NCBI GenBank assembly: GCA_902563055.1
Contig: CACEWE010000013.1
Span: forward strand, 1 to 43,452
Direction: 5' to 3'
DNA length: 43,452 nt
DNA from: an uncultured Gammaproteobacteria bacterium
Lineage (GTDB): Bacteria > Pseudomonadota > Gammaproteobacteria > Francisellales > CACEW01
Part shown: positions 318-26,648 of the stretch, piece by piece
Numbering within the stretch: position 1 is the first letter of the stretch
Layout of the letters: each line of letters opens with the position of its first letter
Program-made: the position numbers and the translations under genes
Notes under the pieces: generated by a model
The model's input: only the letters and a program-made list of their open reading frames with translations
Told to the model about the DNA's origin: nothing
Database searches by the model: none

Positions 318-965
318 ATGATATACAGCTATTTCGCAAAAGAAGATAACTACGAAGTGGACGCGCAGCAAGAGATTGACACTTTTGCACAGAGCCAGGG
401 TTGGACCATTGATCAGCCTTGTCAGGACGAAGATTTCAATAAGGTGCATTGGAGTAAGCGAACCTTATTTTCTATGGTAGGCAACATGAAAGCAGGTGAT
501 AAGCTTTTAACTTATGAAGTAAGTAATCTGGCTTGTTCTACTTTGCAATTACTTGAAATATTAGAACAATTAGTCAGTAAAAAAGTAGAGCTTTATGTCG
601 TAAAATACTCTGAGAGTTTTAAGCCGCTAGAAGAAACCTCTACAAGCGAGTTTCTTAAGTTTATCCAGCATATCGAAGCAGATTTTGTAGCCAAGCGTAC
701 TACTGACGCATTAGCGCGCAGAAGATTAGCCGGCTTGCCACTTGGTCGTCCAAAAGGTCGTAAGAATAAAAGCCGTAAGCTTGATGTCCATAAGCCTGAA
801 ATTAAAAAATACTTAGGCTTAAACATTTCTAAAGCTTCTATTGCAAAACTTGTAGGGTGTCATGCGCAAACACTTTATAACTACATTGATGATATGGGTC
901 TTGTAGAAGAAGTGCAAAAAGAGCAACAAGGCCAATTTAGTCAAGCGGAAAGTCAAGATTCATAA
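318..965 (+). CDS. serine-recombinase-like DNA-binding protein lacking catalytic residues
   Basis: 215 residues. The fold pattern is that of the resolvase/invertase family: an N-terminal catalytic-type domain (about 1-130), a long helix ending in the arm GLPLGRPKGRKNKSRK (139-153), and a C-terminal helix-turn-helix (about 165-192, KASIAKLVGCHAQTLYNYI). Known active members have Y-x-R-V-S near the N terminus and L-D-R-L-G-R-S in the core. Here the serine position is Ala7 (YSYFAKED), the first arginine position is Tyr5, and the core reads V-S-N-L-A-C-S (68-74), so both core arginines are gone. I infer a DNA-binding protein without strand-exchange activity, possibly a regulator of itself or of the arn operon that follows 3 bases later. 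The start has AAGGG 6 bases upstream. A terminator lies just after the gene. Confidence 0.8.
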   Translation: MIYSYFAKEDNYEVDAQQEIDTFAQSQGWTIDQPCQDEDFNKVHWSKRTLFSMVGNMKAGDKLLTYEVSNLACSTLQLLEILEQLVSKKVELYVVKYSESFKPLEETSTSEFLKFIQHIEADFVAKRTTDALARRRLAGLPLGRPKGRKNKSRKLDVHKPEIKKYLGLNISKASIAKLVGCHAQTLYNYIDDMGLVEEVQKEQQGQFSQAESQDS

Positions 966-17915: not shown

Positions 17916-17939
17916 ATGCTATATTCAATGCTATATTCA
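17916..17939 (+). repeat. 12-bp tandem duplication containing the start codon
   Basis: ATGCTATATTCA occurs twice in direct succession (17916-17927 and 17928-17939), giving MLYSMLYS and two in-frame start codons after a G7 run. Confidence 0.95.
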
Positions 17940-19061
17940 AGAATTGGTAGGCCTGGAGGGCAGCGTTGGAATTTTGTGAATCGTTGTGCAAATATTACTA
18001 CTAATGTTTTACAGGCTGCATTAAATGTTCTTCTTATTCAGGGATTTATTGAAGACCAAGGTAAGGACACAGACCTTGTTTTAGGGTTTCTTATTTGTGC
18101 GGGTATGATTTATGCTTATGAAGCTACAAACAAATATACGGACCTTTGCAAAGTATACTATCAGGGGGGCGATAGTCATTTTGATTTGCTTACACAGTAC
18201 ATAAACAGAGGAAGTAAGGTGTGTTGTCGTAAAGAAAATATACGTCCTTTGTTTATGGCTGTTGTAGCTGCTTTATTAAACGGTTGTTCTAATGGTATTA
18301 GCTTGTATAAAATCTTACCGTTGTTAAAGGGCCGGGAAAATCAAGCAGAAGATAGGGTCTATTCTTTTGTACTTGGTTTATGTGTTTTTTTAGCGCAATT
18401 TTATTTCTTTAAGCCAGGTGAGAGGCCCATTCCTTTGCTATTTAGTCTAAGCGCTATAATACAGAATTTCGGCAAGGCTAGTTTTCAAACATATACACTT
18501 TATGATGTTATAAAGCCTGAATCAAATAATAGTTCTGATCTTCCTACAAGCAATAGTTCTGATTTTTCTACAAACAATAGTTCTGATCTTCCTACAAGCG
18601 ATGGTCCTGATCTTGGTATGGTTATTGGCCTAATTATTGTTTTCATGCTGATATTTATTACGCATTATAATGCTCGGATACTTCGTCAGCAGGCTTTAGA
18701 TATAGTTCGAAAACTTCAAGATCAGGGTGAAAATACAAACCCCTTTACAGGGGCAAGGCATGCTTTACTTTGGACTAATTTGGCTAGGGTAGCTGCATGT
18801 CTTGTTGCATTCCCTGCTGCATTTTTTACTGTAGAAAAAGCGGCAAAACATGTCGGCTATGATGATGCAGACATATTGTTACTGCAATGCTTTATTTCGC
18901 CTTGCTTATTTATGCTTTGTTTTAGGAACTTTTTACCACTGTTGGAGCTTTATAACACATTGCAAACAAATGATCATGCTCTAAGCCCCTTCTCTTATTG
19001 TTTTGGAAATACTGCTTGTAGTTCTCAGGTCTCACCTTCTAACACAAACGTTATGCCATAA
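17916..19061 (+). CDS. orphan multi-pass membrane protein with Ser/Asn repeat loop
   Basis: 381 residues. No family is recognised. About eight hydrophobic helices can be drawn: near 30-46, 55-72, 108-130, 145-165, 170-190, 232-250, 285-308 and 320-345. The loop between helices five and six contains a tandem eight-residue repeat (NSSDLPTS-like, residues 205-228). Several cysteines lie in loops (SKVCCRKEN) and the tail (YCFGNTACSS). The start is duplicated (MLYSMLYS), so translation may begin at M1 or M5. The composition and lack of conserved enzymatic motifs resemble lineage-specific proteins of host-associated bacteria; secretion as an effector is possible but nothing in the sequence proves it. 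It stands alone and converges on the RND module. Confidence 0.65.
   Translation: MLYSMLYSRIGRPGGQRWNFVNRCANITTNVLQAALNVLLIQGFIEDQGKDTDLVLGFLICAGMIYAYEATNKYTDLCKVYYQGGDSHFDLLTQYINRGSKVCCRKENIRPLFMAVVAALLNGCSNGISLYKILPLLKGRENQAEDRVYSFVLGLCVFLAQFYFFKPGERPIPLLFSLSAIIQNFGKASFQTYTLYDVIKPESNNSSDLPTSNSSDFSTNNSSDLPTSDGPDLGMVIGLIIVFMLIFITHYNARILRQQALDIVRKLQDQGENTNPFTGARHALLWTNLARVAACLVAFPAAFFTVEKAAKHVGYDDADILLLQCFISPCLFMLCFRNFLPLLELYNTLQTNDHALSPFSYCFGNTACSSQVSPSNTNVMP
18528..18614 (+). repeat. in-frame 24-bp tandem repeat
   Basis: Copies at 18528-18551 and 18576-18599 are identical; the copy between them (18552-18575) differs at three positions. A fourth partial copy (18600-18614) is diverged. The unit is 24 bp, so copy number changes keep the frame and lengthen or shorten a polar loop (NSSDLPTS) between membrane helices. 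Confidence 0.95.
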
Positions 19062-19152
19062 GTTTTGGCGTATAATGCAACCTTGAAAAAATATAATTTT
19101 TATTTGGTCTTAGGTGGCAGGATTATAAGTGGAGTGCTTATTTTGGGTGCGC

Positions 19153-19225
19153 TGACTTATACCAGCGCAAGTACTTTTTTTACAAAGGGAATACTAAGGC
19201 GTTTTTTTTGTGATAAGGAGGCAAG
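19153..19225 (-). pseudogene. detached remnant of the hda 3' end
   Basis: Read on the minus strand, this 73-base stretch encodes LASLSQKKRLSIPFVKKVLA followed by LV and TAA, exactly the C terminus of the intact Hda encoded at 23657-24358. It is 72/73 identical to 23653-23725; the one difference (19169) is synonymous. Immediately upstream in this frame the similarity ends and an in-frame stop appears within six codons. It is the left boundary of the efflux islet. A plus-strand open frame across it (19065-19247, TTG start) is probably not a gene. Confidence 0.9.
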
Positions 19226-19311
19226 CTGCGTGAATGATCAAACTTAACCTTCTTTTTATATGGTTTTGCTATTTAAGTAATTCATTCCATTGTATCTATG
19301 CATTTAGTGGC

Positions 19312-22300
19312 TTAGTTTTCAAGAGTCTTAGTGCGGGGCAAATGAACCAAGTCTTTTGCTTTTTTAATGAATAAATACATCAATGGGACAATTAAAAGTG
19401 AGAACACCGTGCCAATAATGAGCCCACCAATGAGGACAATACCCAAGTTTCGTCTGGCTTCAAACATCAGCCCACTACTAAAAACTAATGGCAAGGCTCC
19501 AAAGGTCATGGCCAAGGTGGTCATTAAGATTGGCCTAAATCGTTGATGCGTTGCGGCTAATATGGCTTCTTTGACAGCGATGCCATCTGCAAGTTGCCGG
19601 TTGGCAAATTTGACAATCAATACCCCATGCTTGGTAATTAAGCCAATCAGTGTGATCAGACCGATGGTGCTATAGATGTTAATAGAGCCATTAATCAGAT
19701 AAAGCGCCAAAGCGCCACCGATGACCGAAAAGGGGACGGTGAGCATAATAATCAAAGGGTCTGCGAGGTTTCTAAAGAGGATGGTTAATAAGAAATACAC
19801 AGAGCTTAACCCTAAAATGGCTACCCAGATATTTTCTTTATTGCCTTCAATATAATCACGGGCATTGCCATCATAATAGATCTGTGCCGATGGTGCTTGT
19901 GTTTTGGTGATTTGATTGATATAGGAAATTGCTTCTCCCATGGAATGCCCTGGAGCAAGATTGGCATTGATTTTTACCGTTGCTTGATTGCCAAATGTGC
20001 TTATGGTGGTTGGTTGAGCAATGGTTTTAAGAGACACAAAGGCATTGAGCGGGTATGTTTTGCCATTTGTAGCGCTGGTGATTTGGAGTTTTTCAAAAGA
20101 TCTGGGGTCGGTGAGATCTTGATTGTTAAGCTGAACAATCACCGGCACAGTAAGGCCGGCAATGCTAAAATAATTATCCAAAGTGGTCCCGCCAAAACTT
20201 GCAGAGAGCAGTTGGGTGATTTGTTGGCGGCTGATACCATATTGGATTGCTTTGGCAGTATCAATATCAAAGGCCAGTTGTTTTTTCATTGGATTAACAT
20301 CGTTTTGGGCCATTGAGAATATAGGAGAGTTTTCCATGTGTTTTGTGATGCGTGTGGCCATCTGATCAACTATTGCAGTGCTGTCATTGCTATAGAGGAA
20401 GAAGCCCAGGTCAAAATTACCCGAGCTTGCAGAATTGCCTAAGGTGGCATAGGTATTGGTGATATGCTGATTTTTGATAAACTGATTAATTTTATCAGTT
20501 AACGCTGGTAGTAGTGATAAATATTTGAGTTTATATATAAGCTGAACATTGCTCTGAAGTTGGCCAGAATTTTGATCTTTATCAATGTCAACGGCGTAGA
20601 ATCTAATTTTAGGTGATTGAAAGTATTTTTCAAAAAGCGCTGTTTTGGCTTTGAGGGAGTCAACGGTGTCTGTAGGTTCTCCATTGATAGTGAGCATAAT
20701 ATTGCCATTGGGATCTTGAGGAAAAACGTTTATGGGTAATTTGAGTGCAAAGAAGCCACCGATTGTTAGAAGGATAAAAATAAGGGCTACGGCTGTTTTT
20801 GCATGGTTTAAAATAAACAACAACACTCGGTGATAGTGGTCGATCAGCCGATGAAGTGCTTGCTCAAATTTCTTTTGATAGGCATTTGGTGCTTGGTTTG
20901 AGATAAAGGATTCTGACATCACAGGAGTCAAGGTCAGCGCTACAATGCCTGAGATTAAAACAGCCGCAGACAAGGTTAGGGCAAAGGGTTTTAAAAAAGA
21001 GGATGTATTGGTATTTGTAAAAAGGATTGGGGTATAAACGGCAATTAAGGTCAGGGTGATGCCAATAATGGTGGTGGCAATGTTAGAGGCGCCTTCAATA
21101 ATGGCCTGATATTTCTTTTTGCCCCGTTCAATATAGCAGGTGACGTTTTCAACGACCACGATTGCATCATCCACCACAAGGCCCACGGCAATCACCATTG
21201 CAAGCAAGGTAATTAAATTAATGCTATAGCCGAAAAGGTAGTTGATGGTAATGGCACCAAGCAAGCACACCGGAATGGTGATAATCGGGATAAGAGTGGT
21301 TTTGAGTCGTCCCAAAAAGATCAGTGCTACCAATAAGACTAATATGCTTGCAATGATGATGGTGAAAACCACTTCATTCATTGAAGCTTTCATAGTGCTT
21401 GCTATATCAATCAATGGTTTAATATCTGTATCGCTTGGTAAAGATGATTTGAGTTTGTTGACGATAGCGCGGCTTGATGAGGAAATTGAGAAAGGATTTG
21501 CATTGCTTGTGGTAAGTAGTTTTATTGTTGCGGTGGGTTGATCGTTGAATGTGCTATAGGGTTGATCGTGAATATTTTTGGGCTCAAATGAGAGGGTAGC
21601 TATGTCTTTGAGGAAGATGGGTAAGCCTTTGACATGCGTTGTTGATGGGGCTTGGGTGGAGCCAATGATTAAATTACCCATATCTGGCAATGAGTTGATC
21701 GGGTTGGCGACATTTAAAATATAGGGGCTTTCATTAATCTGTAAGCTGCCCAAAGGTCTTGATTGATAATTGTCATTGATTATTTCGGTCACGGTATTAA
21801 GGTTTAAGTGATACTGAGCTAGCTTGCTAGGTTCTAGGCCGATTTTGATGATAGGATTCATGTCGGATGCGTAAACACTGACTCCAGGCAAAGTATTAAA
21901 CTTGGGTATCAGTTCAGCATGAATAAAGTTAGACATTTCAAATAGGCTCAGTGATTTTGAGCTTAGGATAAAGGTGATTAAACCAATAGTACCGCCATCA
22001 GATAGCTTAATATCTGGAGCAGATACTGAAGCGGGTAAATTTGCTGAAGAAATAGCTTGAGTTACTTGCAATTGCGCTTTGAAGATATCGGCAGTTGTAC
22101 TTGAGTTTAAAGCAATGTTGAAACTAGTCTGGCCCGCTTTTGTAGTTGTAGTAATGTATTCTAAATTGTCAATCGATTCGAGTTTATTGGTGATTTTATT
22201 TACGATTTGATTTTGGACAGTTTGGGCATTGGCACCTGGATAAGAAAGATCAAAAGAGAGGCTATTGCCAGAGATAACGGGAAAGGGGGAGATGGTTGAT

Positions 22301-22392
22301 TGAAGTGTGCAAAATACACCCACCAAGCAAAGTGCTATTGTTGCAAGATAGATCAGCAATTTATTTTTCAGACATGATTGGATCCATTTCAT
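19312..22392 (-). CDS. RND-family efflux transporter permease
   Basis: 1026 residues, the full length of the HAE-1/AcrB-type family. It is an inner-membrane, proton-driven trimeric pump that exports drugs or amphiphiles. One membrane helix near residues 12-30 is followed by a large periplasmic porter domain, then helices two to six with the proton-relay pair in GLVVDDAIVVVENVTCYIERG (two aspartates, equivalent to AcrB D407/D408). A second porter domain follows, and the last helices contain LITLIGLITKHGVLIVKFAN. Its start overlaps the adaptor gene stop by ATGA. No outer-membrane channel gene (TolC type) is in the islet, so a channel encoded elsewhere is needed. The substrate is unknown. It lies inside the hda-flanked islet, so recent acquisition or mobility is suspected. 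Confidence 0.92.
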   Translation of the reverse strand: MKWIQSCLKNKLLIYLATIALCLVGVFCTLQSTISPFPVISGNSLSFDLSYPGANAQTVQNQIVNKITNKLESIDNLEYITTTTKAGQTSFNIALNSSTTADIFKAQLQVTQAISSANLPASVSAPDIKLSDGGTIGLITFILSSKSLSLFEMSNFIHAELIPKFNTLPGVSVYASDMNPIIKIGLEPSKLAQYHLNLNTVTEIINDNYQSRPLGSLQINESPYILNVANPINSLPDMGNLIIGSTQAPSTTHVKGLPIFLKDIATLSFEPKNIHDQPYSTFNDQPTATIKLLTTSNANPFSISSSSRAIVNKLKSSLPSDTDIKPLIDIASTMKASMNEVVFTIIIASILVLLVALIFLGRLKTTLIPIITIPVCLLGAITINYLFGYSINLITLLAMVIAVGLVVDDAIVVVENVTCYIERGKKKYQAIIEGASNIATTIIGITLTLIAVYTPILFTNTNTSSFLKPFALTLSAAVLISGIVALTLTPVMSESFISNQAPNAYQKKFEQALHRLIDHYHRVLLFILNHAKTAVALIFILLTIGGFFALKLPINVFPQDPNGNIMLTINGEPTDTVDSLKAKTALFEKYFQSPKIRFYAVDIDKDQNSGQLQSNVQLIYKLKYLSLLPALTDKINQFIKNQHITNTYATLGNSASSGNFDLGFFLYSNDSTAIVDQMATRITKHMENSPIFSMAQNDVNPMKKQLAFDIDTAKAIQYGISRQQITQLLSASFGGTTLDNYFSIAGLTVPVIVQLNNQDLTDPRSFEKLQITSATNGKTYPLNAFVSLKTIAQPTTISTFGNQATVKINANLAPGHSMGEAISYINQITKTQAPSAQIYYDGNARDYIEGNKENIWVAILGLSSVYFLLTILFRNLADPLIIMLTVPFSVIGGALALYLINGSINIYSTIGLITLIGLITKHGVLIVKFANRQLADGIAVKEAILAATHQRFRPILMTTLAMTFGALPLVFSSGLMFEARRNLGIVLIGGLIIGTVFSLLIVPLMYLFIKKAKDLVHLPRTKTLEN

Positions 22393-23495
22393 GATGATGT
22401 GCTCTGAACTTGTTGGCCTGGGCTTAAGAGTGTCGGGTTGCTTATGATCAGTTGGTCCCCTGGTTGTAAACCTGACTTAGCTACAATAAGCCCAGATGGC
22501 GTTACTTCTCCTGGTTCAAAGTAGCGTTTTAGAACTTTATGATCTTTAAATAGATATACAAAAAAGCCCTGGGTATCAGATTGTGCTAGGTTCTGTGCAA
22601 TTGCCATACTCTGGTGGTTTGGGTTGATCACTTGCTTGATAAGGCCAAATTGATTGGGCATTAGTTGGGTGGGGGTATCAAAAGTTGCAATGAGATCGAT
22701 ACCGGCATTTTGCGGGTTTATTTCTGGGGCGATATAGCTTAAGTGTGCTTCATAGCTTTGTTTGCCAGAGGTGGGTGTGAAATAAACCAGCTCACCAAGG
22801 TGAAGTTCGTTATTGTATTTGCTTGGCAGCTGATAACGGATGGTGAGGTCGTTTTGGTTGATGACTTTAGCTAGGGTGTCTCCTGTGTTAACAACATCAC
22901 CTACGGCGAAGTTGGTGTCGCTGACAATACCGCTGATTGGTGCGTTGAGATGATTGATGCCTTGGGCTTGCTCATAAAGGGCAAGGGTCTTTTGGTAAGT
23001 GCTTTTGACGGTGATGAAGTCTATGTCAGAGAGACTGTCTTTATCGATTTTTCTCAGTTGTAAGGCGCGATCGTAGTGTGCTTTATCCAGTGCTAGTTGT
23101 GCTTTGAGACTATTTAATTGCAAATTGGAGTTGCTGGTTTGAAGCAGGAAAAGTGGGCTCCCTTTTTCTACTTTCTGGCCGGGTTTAAATAAAATTGCAC
23201 TGATCAAGCCTGTTGTTTGAGCCTGTAAAGTGACAGCTGAGGGTGCATAGGTGCTGCCGTAGCTGATGGCTGTTTGAGGCAGGGTGATAAGTTGAAGTGT
23301 TTTTACTTCGACTTTGATTGGATCTTTAGCCGGTGGTGATGTTGGCGTATGGTGAAAGAGTCCAATGCCCAAATAAATCACAAGGATGATTAAAAGGGCA
23401 ATAATAATGCTTAGTCGTAATTTTTTACTTGTTATGAGCTTCATGCCTAAATTGAACTTGTATAAAATTGTTTTTTTATACCATGTAATGGTCAT
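22389..23495 (-). CDS. RND efflux periplasmic adaptor (membrane fusion protein)
   Basis: 368 residues. An N-terminal membrane anchor (about 28-47, SIIIALLIILVIYLGIGLF) is followed by a lipoyl/hairpin domain (SAVTLQ-AQTTGLISAILFKPGQKVEKGSPLF) and a short coiled-coil hairpin (about 120-170). The second lipoyl half is NHLNAPISGIVSDTNFAVGDVVNTGD, and beta-barrel and membrane-proximal domains complete it. It links the inner-membrane pump to an outer-membrane channel. An internal ATG at 23444 (MKLITSKKLRLS) gives a more typical N terminus, and neither start has a good ribosome binding site. It is first in the two-gene leftward operon, with a 157-base region between it and the repeat that holds the presumed promoter. 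Confidence 0.88.
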   Translation of the reverse strand: MTITWYKKTILYKFNLGMKLITSKKLRLSIIIALLIILVIYLGIGLFHHTPTSPPAKDPIKVEVKTLQLITLPQTAISYGSTYAPSAVTLQAQTTGLISAILFKPGQKVEKGSPLFLLQTSNSNLQLNSLKAQLALDKAHYDRALQLRKIDKDSLSDIDFITVKSTYQKTLALYEQAQGINHLNAPISGIVSDTNFAVGDVVNTGDTLAKVINQNDLTIRYQLPSKYNNELHLGELVYFTPTSGKQSYEAHLSYIAPEINPQNAGIDLIATFDTPTQLMPNQFGLIKQVINPNHQSMAIAQNLAQSDTQGFFVYLFKDHKVLKRYFEPGEVTPSGLIVAKSGLQPGDQLIISNPTLLSPGQQVQSTSS

Positions 23496-23536
23496 TATTA
23501 CAAGCGAATACCAAATTCAAAAAAACGTTTTTTCCT

Positions 23537-23642
23537 AGTACAAGAGAGTTTGTTCATGCCAGTACGTAAAGCAGATGGTTATAATTGCAATGAGTGTGTC
23601 AATGTCTAATTTTTGCAACAGGGCAGGCATTGAGTACAAGAG
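23537..23642. repeat. 10-bp direct repeat pair upstream of the RND operon
   Basis: AGTACAAGAG occurs at 23537-23546 and 23633-23642, 96 bp apart, within the untranscribed region before the adaptor gene. A pair of regulator sites is one reading. No regulator gene is adjacent, and I found no well-spaced promoter here. Confidence 0.3.
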
Positions 23643-23652
23643 GTTCTTCTAT

Positions 23653-23725
23653 TGACTTATACCAGCGCTAGTACTTTTTTTACAAAGGGAATACTAAGGC
23701 GTTTTTTTTGTGATAAGGAGGCAAG
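23653..23725 (-). repeat. right copy of the 73-bp direct repeat (hda 3' end)
   Basis: This is identical to 19153-19225 except at 23669. It begins 4 bases beyond the hda stop codon and covers the last 22 sense codons. Outside these limits the two sites have no extended similarity on either side, which defines the repeat boundaries sharply. Confidence 0.97.
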
Positions 23726-24358
23726 GTGCAAAGATTCAAGCTGTTCCAGTAGCGCACTGATGTTTCTGGTGCAGCGCCTGAGCATATAATCGGCCACTTC
23801 TGCCTCTAGATTGAGGCCTAGTAGCTGGGCTCTTTGTTGTAAGATTGCCACAATGAGATCATCATCTGGATTTGGAATTTGAATTTGTAAGGGCCATAAC
23901 AAACGTGAGGAAAGGTCCTCTAGCTCAAGGTCCGTTTGAGCAATGGTTTCTTGGCTGCTAAAAAGACATTGGCACGCGGGGTTGGCATGCACTTGGTTGT
24001 ATAGGTGAAACAGGGCTTCTTGCCATGGGCGATGGTTTTTAAGAGCTTGGATGTTTTCAATCACAATAAGACGGTATGTTGAACTTAATCCCTCGAGCAT
24101 TTGGGGATCTAGGGTGTTAATCTGCGCCAAGTCCAAGTAAAAACACGCCTTGTGTTCTAGTGCGTGGATGGCGCTGTAACATAAATGGCTTTTGCCACAG
24201 CCTGAGGCACCAAGTAACAATAAGAAACGCTCTGATTGCGCCTCTAGCCAATCTTTGAGTTGCTTTGCTAGGTGCTCATGGCCTGAAGGGTCTATAAAAT
24301 ATTTGAAATAAGCAGTTTTCTCATAGCCTAAGGGCATCAACAGTTGCTGGGGGTGCAT
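23657..24358 (-). CDS. hda: DnaA regulatory inactivator Hda
   Basis: 233 residues, the usual size. It is a DnaA-like AAA+ protein that, with the DNA-loaded beta clamp, stimulates hydrolysis of DnaA-bound ATP after replication starts. The N-terminal clamp-binding stretch (QQLLMPLGY, 4-12) precedes the Walker A GASGCGKSHL and a Walker B-like region RLIVIENIQAL. The sensor and lid region ends in SLSQKKRLSIPFVKKVLALV. Its last 22 codons lie in the direct repeat that borders the RND islet, so the present 3' end may derive from the incoming DNA. The start at 24358 has no clear ribosome binding site. A shorter DnaA-like protein of other function is unlikely given the C terminus. Confidence 0.88.
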   Translation of the reverse strand: MHPQQLLMPLGYEKTAYFKYFIDPSGHEHLAKQLKDWLEAQSERFLLLLGASGCGKSHLCYSAIHALEHKACFYLDLAQINTLDPQMLEGLSSTYRLIVIENIQALKNHRPWQEALFHLYNQVHANPACQCLFSSQETIAQTDLELEDLSSRLLWPLQIQIPNPDDDLIVAILQQRAQLLGLNLEAEVADYMLRRCTRNISALLEQLESLHLASLSQKKRLSIPFVKKVLALV

Positions 24359-24461
24359 GACGGGGCCAAAGAAGATAGAATATATGCCAGTATTGTAAAG
24401 ATAAGAGCTGCAAAATACAATTGTGTAACAGCATTAGTTTTTATATAATAATTTTTTTTTA

Positions 24462-24617
24462 ATGAATGGTGGCATGCAAAATAAAGACAAATTTTCTACA
24501 TTATCCCAAGCTAAAGCGGTTGCAATAGTAGAGTTTATATTTGCCATTATATTCTTGTTGGGTAGGGAAATACACTGGGGCATAGATCAAGAATTGTTCC
24601 CTAGCATGCAATGGTGA
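24462..24617 (+). CDS. candidate 51-residue single-helix membrane protein
   Basis: The frame from ATG 24462 to TGA 24615-24617 encodes 51 residues: a polar N terminus (MNGGMQNKDKFSTLSQ), one predicted membrane helix (about 19-34, VAIVEFIFAIIFLL) and a short tail (GREIHWGIDQELFP). The balanced codon use and clear topology look gene-like. However, a T-run rather than a ribosome binding site precedes the ATG. It could be a small membrane protein, a decayed piece of a larger one, or chance. Confidence 0.3.
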   Translation: MNGGMQNKDKFSTLSQAKAVAIVEFIFAIIFLLGREIHWGIDQELFPSMQW

Positions 24618-24698
24618 AAGAGCGTAACAACACTTCGATAGCATTGTAACATATAAACGTATTTGGCAGTGCGCGTTATTTCAATCAAGTGGCTCTAC

Positions 24699-24727
24699 TT
24701 GTTATCTGAGCGATGAGGATACATAAT
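24699..24727 (+). promoter_or_regulatory. candidate promoter of the DUF1338 gene
   Basis: TTGTTA (24699-24704) and CATAAT (24722-24727) are 17 bases apart. Transcription would begin near 24734, giving a short leader that still includes the GTGGAGGG ribosome binding site before ATG 24752. Confidence 0.4.
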
Positions 24728-24751
24728 AAGATCTTTTAGTGGAGGGCACGA

Positions 24752-25558
24752 ATGGATACATTAGATCTTTTTTTTGAGCAGTTATGGCAAGATTACGTGA
24801 TGCGAGCACCACAAGCACAAGAGATTTTTGATTTATTTAAAGCACAAGGTGAGACGCCGCTCAATGATCACGTCGCTTTTCGAACCTTAAACCTTCCGGG
24901 CATGGATATAGAGGCGTGTAGCGCTTATTTTCTAAGCCATGGTTACGTGCAGCAAGGTGAAAAAATGCATTTTGCGCAAAAAAAACTCGATGCTTATTAT
25001 TTTACGCACCCAAAGTCATGCTATCCCAAGATTTTTATTTCTCATTTACTACTTGATGATTTATCAGCTAAAACACAAGAAATATGCAAGGCTATTCATC
25101 AGGCTGTGCTTGCTCAGGCGCCAAGTCCACAGCAGCTTTTACTTGCTGGACGTTTATGGCCCACTTTATGCTATGAGACTTATCAGCAATTACTTCAAGA
25201 GAGTGAATATGCGGCGTGGTTTTATGTTTTTGGCTTTTGTGCCAATCATTTCACTATATTTATTAATGCATTGCAACATTTCGATAGTGTTGCAGCGGTC
25301 AATACTTTTTTGTTAGAAAGTGGTTTAAAGCTTAATGATGCCGGTGGGCTTATTAAAGGCTCGCCATCAGATTATCTTGAGCAATCAAGTACGAAAGCTG
25401 CTAGTGTTACGGTGAAATTTGAGCAAGGTACCTATCAAATTCCAGGCTGTTACTATGAATTTGCCAAGCGATATGCCATGTCAGATGGTCGTTTGTTTCA
25501 GGGCTTTGTGCCAACATCCGCTGATAAAATATTTCAAAGCACCGATAGCAAAAAATAA
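24752..25558 (+). CDS. DUF1338 family protein (VOC-superfamily dioxygenase type)
   Basis: 268 residues, the short form of the DUF1338 family. A longer member (HglS/YdcJ) is an iron-dependent 2-oxoadipate dioxygenase/decarboxylase in lysine breakdown. The likely metal ligands are conserved: His39 in NDHVAFRTLN, a histidine in CANHFTIFIN (about 167-176), and a glutamate in GCYYEFAKRY near the C terminus. The terminal motif GRLFQGFVPTSADKIFQST is also typical. The exact substrate of short members is not established, so a 2-oxoadipate-like keto acid is only an inference. It has a strong ribosome binding site (GGAGGG) and no lysine catabolic genes beside it. Confidence 0.85.
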   Translation: MDTLDLFFEQLWQDYVMRAPQAQEIFDLFKAQGETPLNDHVAFRTLNLPGMDIEACSAYFLSHGYVQQGEKMHFAQKKLDAYYFTHPKSCYPKIFISHLLLDDLSAKTQEICKAIHQAVLAQAPSPQQLLLAGRLWPTLCYETYQQLLQESEYAAWFYVFGFCANHFTIFINALQHFDSVAAVNTFLLESGLKLNDAGGLIKGSPSDYLEQSSTKAASVTVKFEQGTYQIPGCYYEFAKRYAMSDGRLFQGFVPTSADKIFQSTDSKK

Positions 25559-25642
25559 GGGTGTTTTTTATGTAATATCCAGATGCAATCCATTATTGCC
25601 TGTGTTAAAATAATTTTTTTTTGAATGTTCAAGGAGCGCGTG

Positions 25643-25915
25643 ATGTCAAATAAACCTTATCATAATCATTGGGTACAACAAGGTTCAGAAGATGCTGCAG
25701 CGCATAGCCAGCCACGTTTTAGCAGCACTTTTTTGAAGAAGTTTGGTGCCTGTTTAATTGGATTTGCTATTGTGATGATGCTTTGGCATAGTTTTGCAGG
25801 AAACAATACCCATCATAGCAAGGCCCCAGCTGCAACAAATGCACAAAACCAAAAAGTAGCGATGCGTACGATTCCCGTAAGCCTACCAAACGCTCAAAGT
25901 GATAGCGAAGCATAA
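25643..25915 (+). CDS. small single-helix membrane protein before minC
   Basis: 90 residues from ATG 25643, chosen because AAGGAG lies 6 bases upstream; an earlier in-frame ATG (25625) precedes this element. The N terminus is polar (MSNKPYHNHWVQQGSEDA), one membrane helix follows (about 34-53, FGACLIGFAIVMMLWHSFAG), and the rest is a low-complexity periplasmic tail rich in Ala, Asn and Ser. I do not recognise the family. It ends 13 bases before the minC start, whose ribosome binding site overlaps its stop codon region. It is therefore probably transcribed with minC, and a role near the division site is only a guess. Confidence 0.65.
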   Translation: MSNKPYHNHWVQQGSEDAAAHSQPRFSSTFLKKFGACLIGFAIVMMLWHSFAGNNTHHSKAPAATNAQNQKVAMRTIPVSLPNAQSDSEA

Positions 25916-25928
25916 AGGAGACCATTTG

Positions 25929-26648
25929 ATGAGTAACAAGCATTTTCAGGTAAAAGGTTCACAATTTACCTTAACCGTTTTGGAACTATACACCTCGGAT
26001 TTAAAAGCCTTTGAAGCCCAGCTTAAAGAAAAAGTCCAATTAGCACCAAAGTTTTTTCGTTTTGCCCCAGTTGTGGTTGATGTTAAGCATCTTCCCTTGG
26101 AGCAAGAAATAGATTTTAACGCACTAAAAAATTTACTGTGCCAAATTGAGCTCATTCCAGTGGCCATTCGTGGCGCGCATTTAGCATGGCAGCCGCGCAT
26201 TGAAGCAGCTCAAATGGCCATTATGCAATCTAGTGGCGATGGCAAAGAAAGTGCTATCAATCTTAAAGATGCAGAAAAAAATGCAATGCAGCAAAAATCT
26301 TGCCAAGAAATTCGAAGTCAAGGCTCTTTACTTGTTACCCAGCCAGTGCGCTCGGGCCAGCAAATTTATGCCCAAGGCGGCGATTTAGTCGTTATTTCTT
26401 CGGTAAGCCCAGGATCTGAGCTTTTAGCCGATGGCAATATTCATGTTTATGGAACCTTACGTGGTCGCGCGCTGGCAGGCGTGGGTGGCAATGATCAATC
26501 GCGCATTTTTTGCAATAGCTTAGAGGCAGAACTTGTGGCGATTGCTGGTCAGTATAAAATATTTGATGATATTGCCTCTCCTGAGCAGGGTAAGGCCAAA
26601 CAGTTGTATTTAAAAGATGGCTCCTTAATGATTAGCACATTAATGTAG
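25929..26648 (+). CDS. minC: septum site-determining protein MinC
   Basis: 239 residues from ATG 25929, which has AAAGGAG 8 bases upstream; the longer open frame from 25899 would start inside the previous gene. MinC inhibits FtsZ polymerisation away from midcell. The N-terminal FtsZ-binding domain is about 1-105. A linker (about 106-130) follows, then the C-terminal beta-helix domain (VTQPVRSGQQIYAQGGDLVVISSVSPGSELLADGNIHVYG-type repeats). GRALAGVGGND and the SLEAELVAIAGQY segment are MinD-binding hallmarks. The gene is 75 bases upstream of minD, which also has its own -10 element. Confidence 0.93.
   Translation: MSNKHFQVKGSQFTLTVLELYTSDLKAFEAQLKEKVQLAPKFFRFAPVVVDVKHLPLEQEIDFNALKNLLCQIELIPVAIRGAHLAWQPRIEAAQMAIMQSSGDGKESAINLKDAEKNAMQQKSCQEIRSQGSLLVTQPVRSGQQIYAQGGDLVVISSVSPGSELLADGNIHVYGTLRGRALAGVGGNDQSRIFCNSLEAELVAIAGQYKIFDDIASPEQGKAKQLYLKDGSLMISTLM

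Follow-up and report, generated by a model that had tools for sequence, protein, structure and literature searches.

The window, the 43,452-nt stretch of DNA that was analysed, comes from an uncultured gammaproteobacterium of the order Francisellales whose draft assembly comprises 1.74 Mb in 83 contigs and is 92% complete. It carries an intact hda gene followed in the same orientation by the two genes of an RND efflux pump and, beyond these, by a second copy of the end of hda. The features of this locus, the hda islet, are:

17916–19061, plus strand: convergent orphan gene, presumed former downstream neighbour of hda; no family found
19148–19176, plus strand: intrinsic terminator TGCGCTG-ACTTATAC-CAGCGCA-AGTACTTTTTTT across the left junction (strict pattern; MFE −11.8 kcal/mol)
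19153–19229, minus strand: left repeat copy, an orphan hda tail, presumed to be the native hda 3′ end before insertion (sequence comparison)
19230–19311, no strand: spacer from the permease stop to the orphan tail, with the presumed illegitimate joint at 19229/19230 (sequence)
19312–22392, minus strand: RND efflux permease, AcrB/AcrD/AcrF family (PF00873, E 1.1e-193)
22389–23495, minus strand: RND periplasmic adaptor, HlyD/MFP (TIGR01730, over the cut-off)
23496–23652, no strand: cargo-side spacer adjoining hda, with no second copy in the genome (sequence)
23653–23729, minus strand: right repeat copy, made up of the final 23 codons and the stop of hda plus 4 bp, joined to the gene body (sequence comparison)
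23657–24358, minus strand: hda, the intact anchor gene, encoding the DnaA regulatory inactivator (TIGR03420 DnaA_homol_Hda, 197.3 bits against a cut-off of 194.8; Pfam Hda_lid)

The repeat copies are identical at 75 of 77 positions (97%) and lie exactly 4500 bp apart, start to start, a value for which no meaning was found. The initial annotation had described a 73-bp repeat with one synonymous difference at this spacing; it is present (19153–19225 and 23653–23725, with A at 19169 against T at 23669 in a synonymous Leu codon of hda) and extends to 77 bp, with a second mismatch close to the outer edge (19226 C, 23726 G). A DNA search of the 1.74-Mb assembly found only these two copies, which excludes a chance repeat. 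Also borne out were the identification of the right copy as the coding end of hda, the TIGR03420 match being above the cut-off, and that of the left copy as an orphan piece with a stop codon just upstream, an in-frame TGA being seen a few codons away.

Between the repeats lie the adaptor and permease genes alone, with their spacers and nothing else notable; the absence of a recombinase from the islet, stated at the outset, was confirmed. The closest relatives of the permease (54, 51 and 49% identical) occur in other families with a patchy distribution, and plasmid relatives are at most about 31% identical among the matches listed. Megablast of 18000–26000 against plasmid and phage records gave no match. 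A foreign origin of the pump was also considered on composition and set aside: the GC content of the cargo (0.41–0.43) and its GC3 are both like those of neighbouring host genes, and give no signal. In three other genomes with relatives of the pump (G023, G348 and G089), tail duplication around it was looked for and the pump is not flanked.

The two junctions differ in a way that bears on the direction of insertion. The terminator at 19148–19176 has its left arm mostly outside the repeat and its right arm within it, and 19169 A, at one of the two positions where the copies differ, closes the seventh pair of the hairpin. The minimum free energy is −11.8 kcal/mol at the left copy versus −4.3 kcal/mol at the right copy, which has no such hairpin. 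With both strands counted, 0.27 matches to the strict terminator pattern would be expected in 43 kb; three were found, one of them at the left junction, where it faces the convergent gene 17916–19061. Since this terminator lies across the left junction and has no counterpart at the right copy, it is probably on the left that hda originally ended and met its old downstream flank, the right copy facing newer DNA. This agrees with the earlier proposal that the old hda end was displaced to the far border. The convergent gene, a membrane protein gene, has no relative among 31 genomes of the order; it contains tandem 24-bp units (NSSDLPTS-like) at 18523–18614.

A scan of genome contigs with Hda returned seven distant gammaproteobacterial loci and no relative of this locus. 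Of two family members, one has hda beside der and the second has it flanked by hpf and a peptidase-like gene, and no gene order at hda is common to these and the present genome; the scan and the two family members yielded neither an empty site nor a donor for the islet. Because no relative of the locus was found, the direction and age of the insertion are read from the terminator and from the class of similar cases described below. A literature search, which reached a minority of subscription journals, found no paper on hda as an integration site.

Insertions anchored in gene ends form a class in this genome, to which the hda islet belongs; it is no oddity of hda. We surveyed 1.20 Mb of the genome's own stretches (0.20 Mb masked, ~1.0 Mb read) for repeats of at least 40 bp and at least 85% identity that occur exactly twice and within 15 kb. 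There were 17 direct and no inverted pairs (two-sided sign test, p 1.5e-5), and in eight of the pairs one copy forms a gene's 3′ end and the other lies orphaned on the far side of cargo:

hda: 77-bp tail
Trp/Tyr permease gene: 104-bp tail
SDF symporter gene: 318-bp tail
yicC: 292-bp tail, beyond the gene for a 1412-aa ankyrin-repeat protein (L091 19127–20000 and L173 1–4870, contig C6)
ribH: 137-bp tail (99.3%), on both sides of a GGCT gene of ChaC type that belongs to a Francisella-named family (L101 17830–19318, contig C17)
gdhA-type glutamate dehydrogenase gene: last 296 bp, repeated at 98.3% identity with five synonymous differences on the far side of a convergent 794-aa ORF that has no known family (L106 878–5155, contig C22)
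gene for a 194-aa protein: 116-bp tail
ssrA (tmRNA): 295 bp of the 3′ part, repeated 6.5 kb on, around sugar-nucleotide and glycosyltransferase genes with no integrase (L109 1–7104, contig C25); the assignment rests on Rfam, contig C25 beginning inside the gene and ARAGORN finding no tmRNA there

Seven genes besides hda thus have duplicated tails, of 104–318 bp, around unrelated cargo that includes ankyrin-repeat proteins, large proteins without family, the ChaC-type GGCT and glycan genes. A gene-head variant was also seen, in which a umuD-like gene has a second, truncated copy (426 bp, 93%) on the far side of O-antigen-ligase-like and Rce1-like genes (L103 1672–5560, contig C19), and one more repeat pair is the region upstream of an aminotransferase gene. 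Separately, contig C8 (L093 6092–9547) encodes a 986-aa protein with leucine-rich and ankyrin repeats between 105-bp repeats (88%), which suggests a host-associated lifestyle.

The anatomy recurs in other genomes, for which the surveys were small samples giving rough rates. In G089, a gammaproteobacterium of another family that holds one of the closest relatives of the permease, a dusA tail islet lies near that permease: a 100-bp tail is repeated around MFS and cysteine-synthase-like genes (L058 11681–15158), and at the far joint nagA is truncated at the orphan tail. The cut nagA is a sign of a random DNA end, and suits a circle as well as linear DNA. Further cases are a Smr gene in G089 and a nhaD-like gene in the Francisella-like genome G007, which is a single contig; ~0.39 Mb of unmasked sequence from G348 held no similar case. 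The claim of the initial annotation that hda is a special integration target could therefore not be upheld, since the same anatomy lies behind at least seven other genes here and behind genes elsewhere, with tails of 41–318 bp, no shared ends, and no tyrosine integrase beyond XerC and XerD.

The position and divergence of the tails point to how they arose. At the seven coding genes, the cargo-side repeat ends lie 4, 4, 13, 8, 0, −23 and 47 bp from the stop, so that five of the seven tails end 0–13 bp past it. The five coding tails with the least divergence show 15 differences in all, 13 of them synonymous; free decay of one copy would give a synonymous fraction estimated at ~0.43 (p 6e-4, with the hda edge mismatch left out). 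The SDF symporter and yicC tails have the most changes, about half of them nonsynonymous, and small indels, as in older orphans. Clear terminator-like hairpins occur at two of the eight orphan ends, those of hda and of the Trp/Tyr permease gene, the latter strong and just past the orphan end. No stretch of at least 10 bp is common to the ends of the eight islets, which also lack a shared motif and terminal inverted repeats.

These observations are best explained, and we think probably so, if the hda islet is an accessory insertion made by homology-anchored recombination in the hda 3′ end, without a dedicated mobile element. A related strain would have supplied DNA in which the adaptor and permease genes came immediately after an hda tail. 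Recombination in the common tail would have linked this DNA to the chromosomal hda, giving the right copy; the other end of the cargo would have been attached inside hda about 77 bp before its end, pushing the resident tail, with its old downstream flank and terminator, to the far side as the left copy. Two routes could lead there: a single crossover with a circle carrying tail and cargo, or entry of linear DNA through homology-facilitated illegitimate recombination (HFIR), in which one joint is illegitimate. Arrival as a circle, which the initial annotation had put forward, is possible, and linear DNA fits equally. A dedicated recombinase would be unneeded, and other genes of the same genome would have served as anchors likewise. 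The repeats would end near the stop because donor and recipient would have the gene in common but not the sequence beyond it; the synonymous excess between young coding tails suggests two alleles and not a duplicated target; and the lack of a common motif or terminal inverted repeats at the eight ends favours recombination by general homology. We infer in this way the direction of insertion, the donor origin of the right tail and the use of general homology. Genes for ComEC and DprA are present in the genome, so that DNA uptake is possible in principle, a potential and not a demonstration of competence. Against this explanation, the synonymous excess rests on 15 differences, just two of eight orphan ends have a clear terminator-like hairpin, and HFIR as usually described deletes recipient DNA and does not duplicate it.

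A doubtful alternative is insertion with long target duplication, strictly understood, in which some other mechanism duplicated the resident hda tail and both copies derive from the recipient. Such insertion, with long and variable duplications, has been described for restriction-modification genes of Helicobacter pylori (Nobusato et al. 2000, as related in PMC1643837 and PMC3031569), and the anatomy found here matches that account; the 97% identity of the hda copies also fits. Random duplication, however, predicts neither the synonymous excess in the young tails nor the clustering of repeat ends at stops, both of which are expected from homology-anchored recombination between two alleles.

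A third reading is that the islet is a site-specific integrative element with the hda 3′ end as attB and its integrase lost or supplied by a helper. Gene 3′ ends are classic attachment sites, and yicC, dusA and ssrA, all three affected in this analysis, are known integration sites. The repeat does end just past the hda stop, five resolvase-fold proteins are encoded in the genome, and an integrase could be missing from view because the assembly is 92% complete. Against this stand the number of targets, eight genes or more in a single genome, the tails of up to 318 bp and the lack of shared ends. Only two tyrosine recombinases (PF00589 matches) were found in the assembly, XerC and XerD by size and context; no recombinase occurs in any islet cargo tested, and no dif-like site at the borders of the hda islet, where the best match is no better than in shuffles. 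As for serine recombinases, one of the five resolvase-fold proteins lies in the window (318–965) and none inside an islet. In an alignment to a relative whose canonical motifs (YLRVSTQDQ and SRLGRS) are intact, none of the five has the first-motif arginine or the first arginine of the second motif, and just one of the five keeps the serine position. With degenerate active sites and a location outside the islets, they are unlikely inserters, though some may still be active. A site-specific element is improbable as the source of the islet.

The resolvase-fold proteins form a family with several copies per genome, five here and three and five in two family members. In this family (window 318–965; L184, L186, L187, L189 and L190), conserved catalytic arginines, and often the serine, are replaced, and a C-terminal helix-turn-helix-like part is well kept; they are possibly recombinases turned DNA-binding regulators.

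Old local duplication, either a tandem copy of hda tail and pump followed by loss of the second pump or a decayed tandem hda, is very improbable. Duplicated gene fragments are common in bacteria and the repeats are direct and close together, but this history needs a deletion ending within 4 bp of the hda stop, plus similar coincidences at several loci, and the left flank and the tail together make up a terminator, as would be expected of a native end. An artefact of this draft, metagenome-type assembly is scarcely credible: 83 contigs, a 77-bp repeat within the range of k-mer sizes and a mixed population could yield chimaeras, but the copies differ at two positions with four distinct flanks on one contig, and many similar cases lie inside contigs, in other assemblies too, including the nhaD-like gene in the single-contig G007.

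Homology-anchored insertion also admits a more speculative, and to our minds unlikely, extension to the whole lineage. Strains might share a pool of accessory genes, every one of them linked to the 3′ tail of its own core gene, and exchange them as circles of tail plus cargo, excised and reinserted at the matching gene by RecA only, with core genes as attachment sites and no dedicated recombinase; the hda pump islet would then be one cassette, which may still excise.

As a single locus the hda islet is ordinary; the class of islets is of moderate interest. The entry of accessory genes into bacterial genomes without a transposase or integrase is poorly documented, and about eight insertions per megabase in one draft genome, with the anchor gene and both joints recorded, provide a set for direct testing of gene-end-anchored recombination. 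The cases also show that a duplicated gene end around cargo is by itself no evidence for a site-specific element.

Compared with known systems, the islets resemble insertions with long target duplication in having cargo without transposase or integrase between long, variable direct repeats of resident sequence; at hda the visible signs, long resident repeats and recombinase-free cargo, are present as far as the sequence can tell. Those insertions mainly concern restriction-modification genes, whereas here a pump, ankyrin proteins, a GGCT and glycan genes lie mostly behind gene 3′ ends, and the young copies differ mostly synonymously, suggesting two alleles. Integrative mobilizable and cis-mobilizable elements (IME/CIME) in gene 3′ ends likewise have the gene-end repeat on both sides of the cargo and restore gene function; unlike these, the islets sit at many unrelated targets, have repeats longer than typical att sites and lack a common core, and no integrase was found. 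Unlike a Xer-dependent element (IMEX), the hda islet has no dif-like site at its borders.

HFIR was reportedly described by de Vries and Wackernagel in 2002. Like it, the islets would need one homologous anchor, one illegitimate joint and no recombinase, a fit judged from the recipient sequence; in most reports of HFIR the joint has cost the recipient some DNA, whereas the resident tail here is kept. HFIR has also been proposed for T6SS effector arrays (PMC5361080). For rhs tips, a circle carrying core plus new tip has been proposed, with end displacement by homologous recombination (2009, PMC2935791). There, as here, new 3′ sequence would arrive via a common core fragment of variable length, leaving the old end orphaned downstream. 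The rhs process requires an rhs anchor gene with a variable tip, whereas the anchor here is hda and the anchors in general are housekeeping genes with unchanged products, the cargo consisting of separate genes and no new protein tip. With these differences, the rhs model appears to be the closest mechanism known for the islet.
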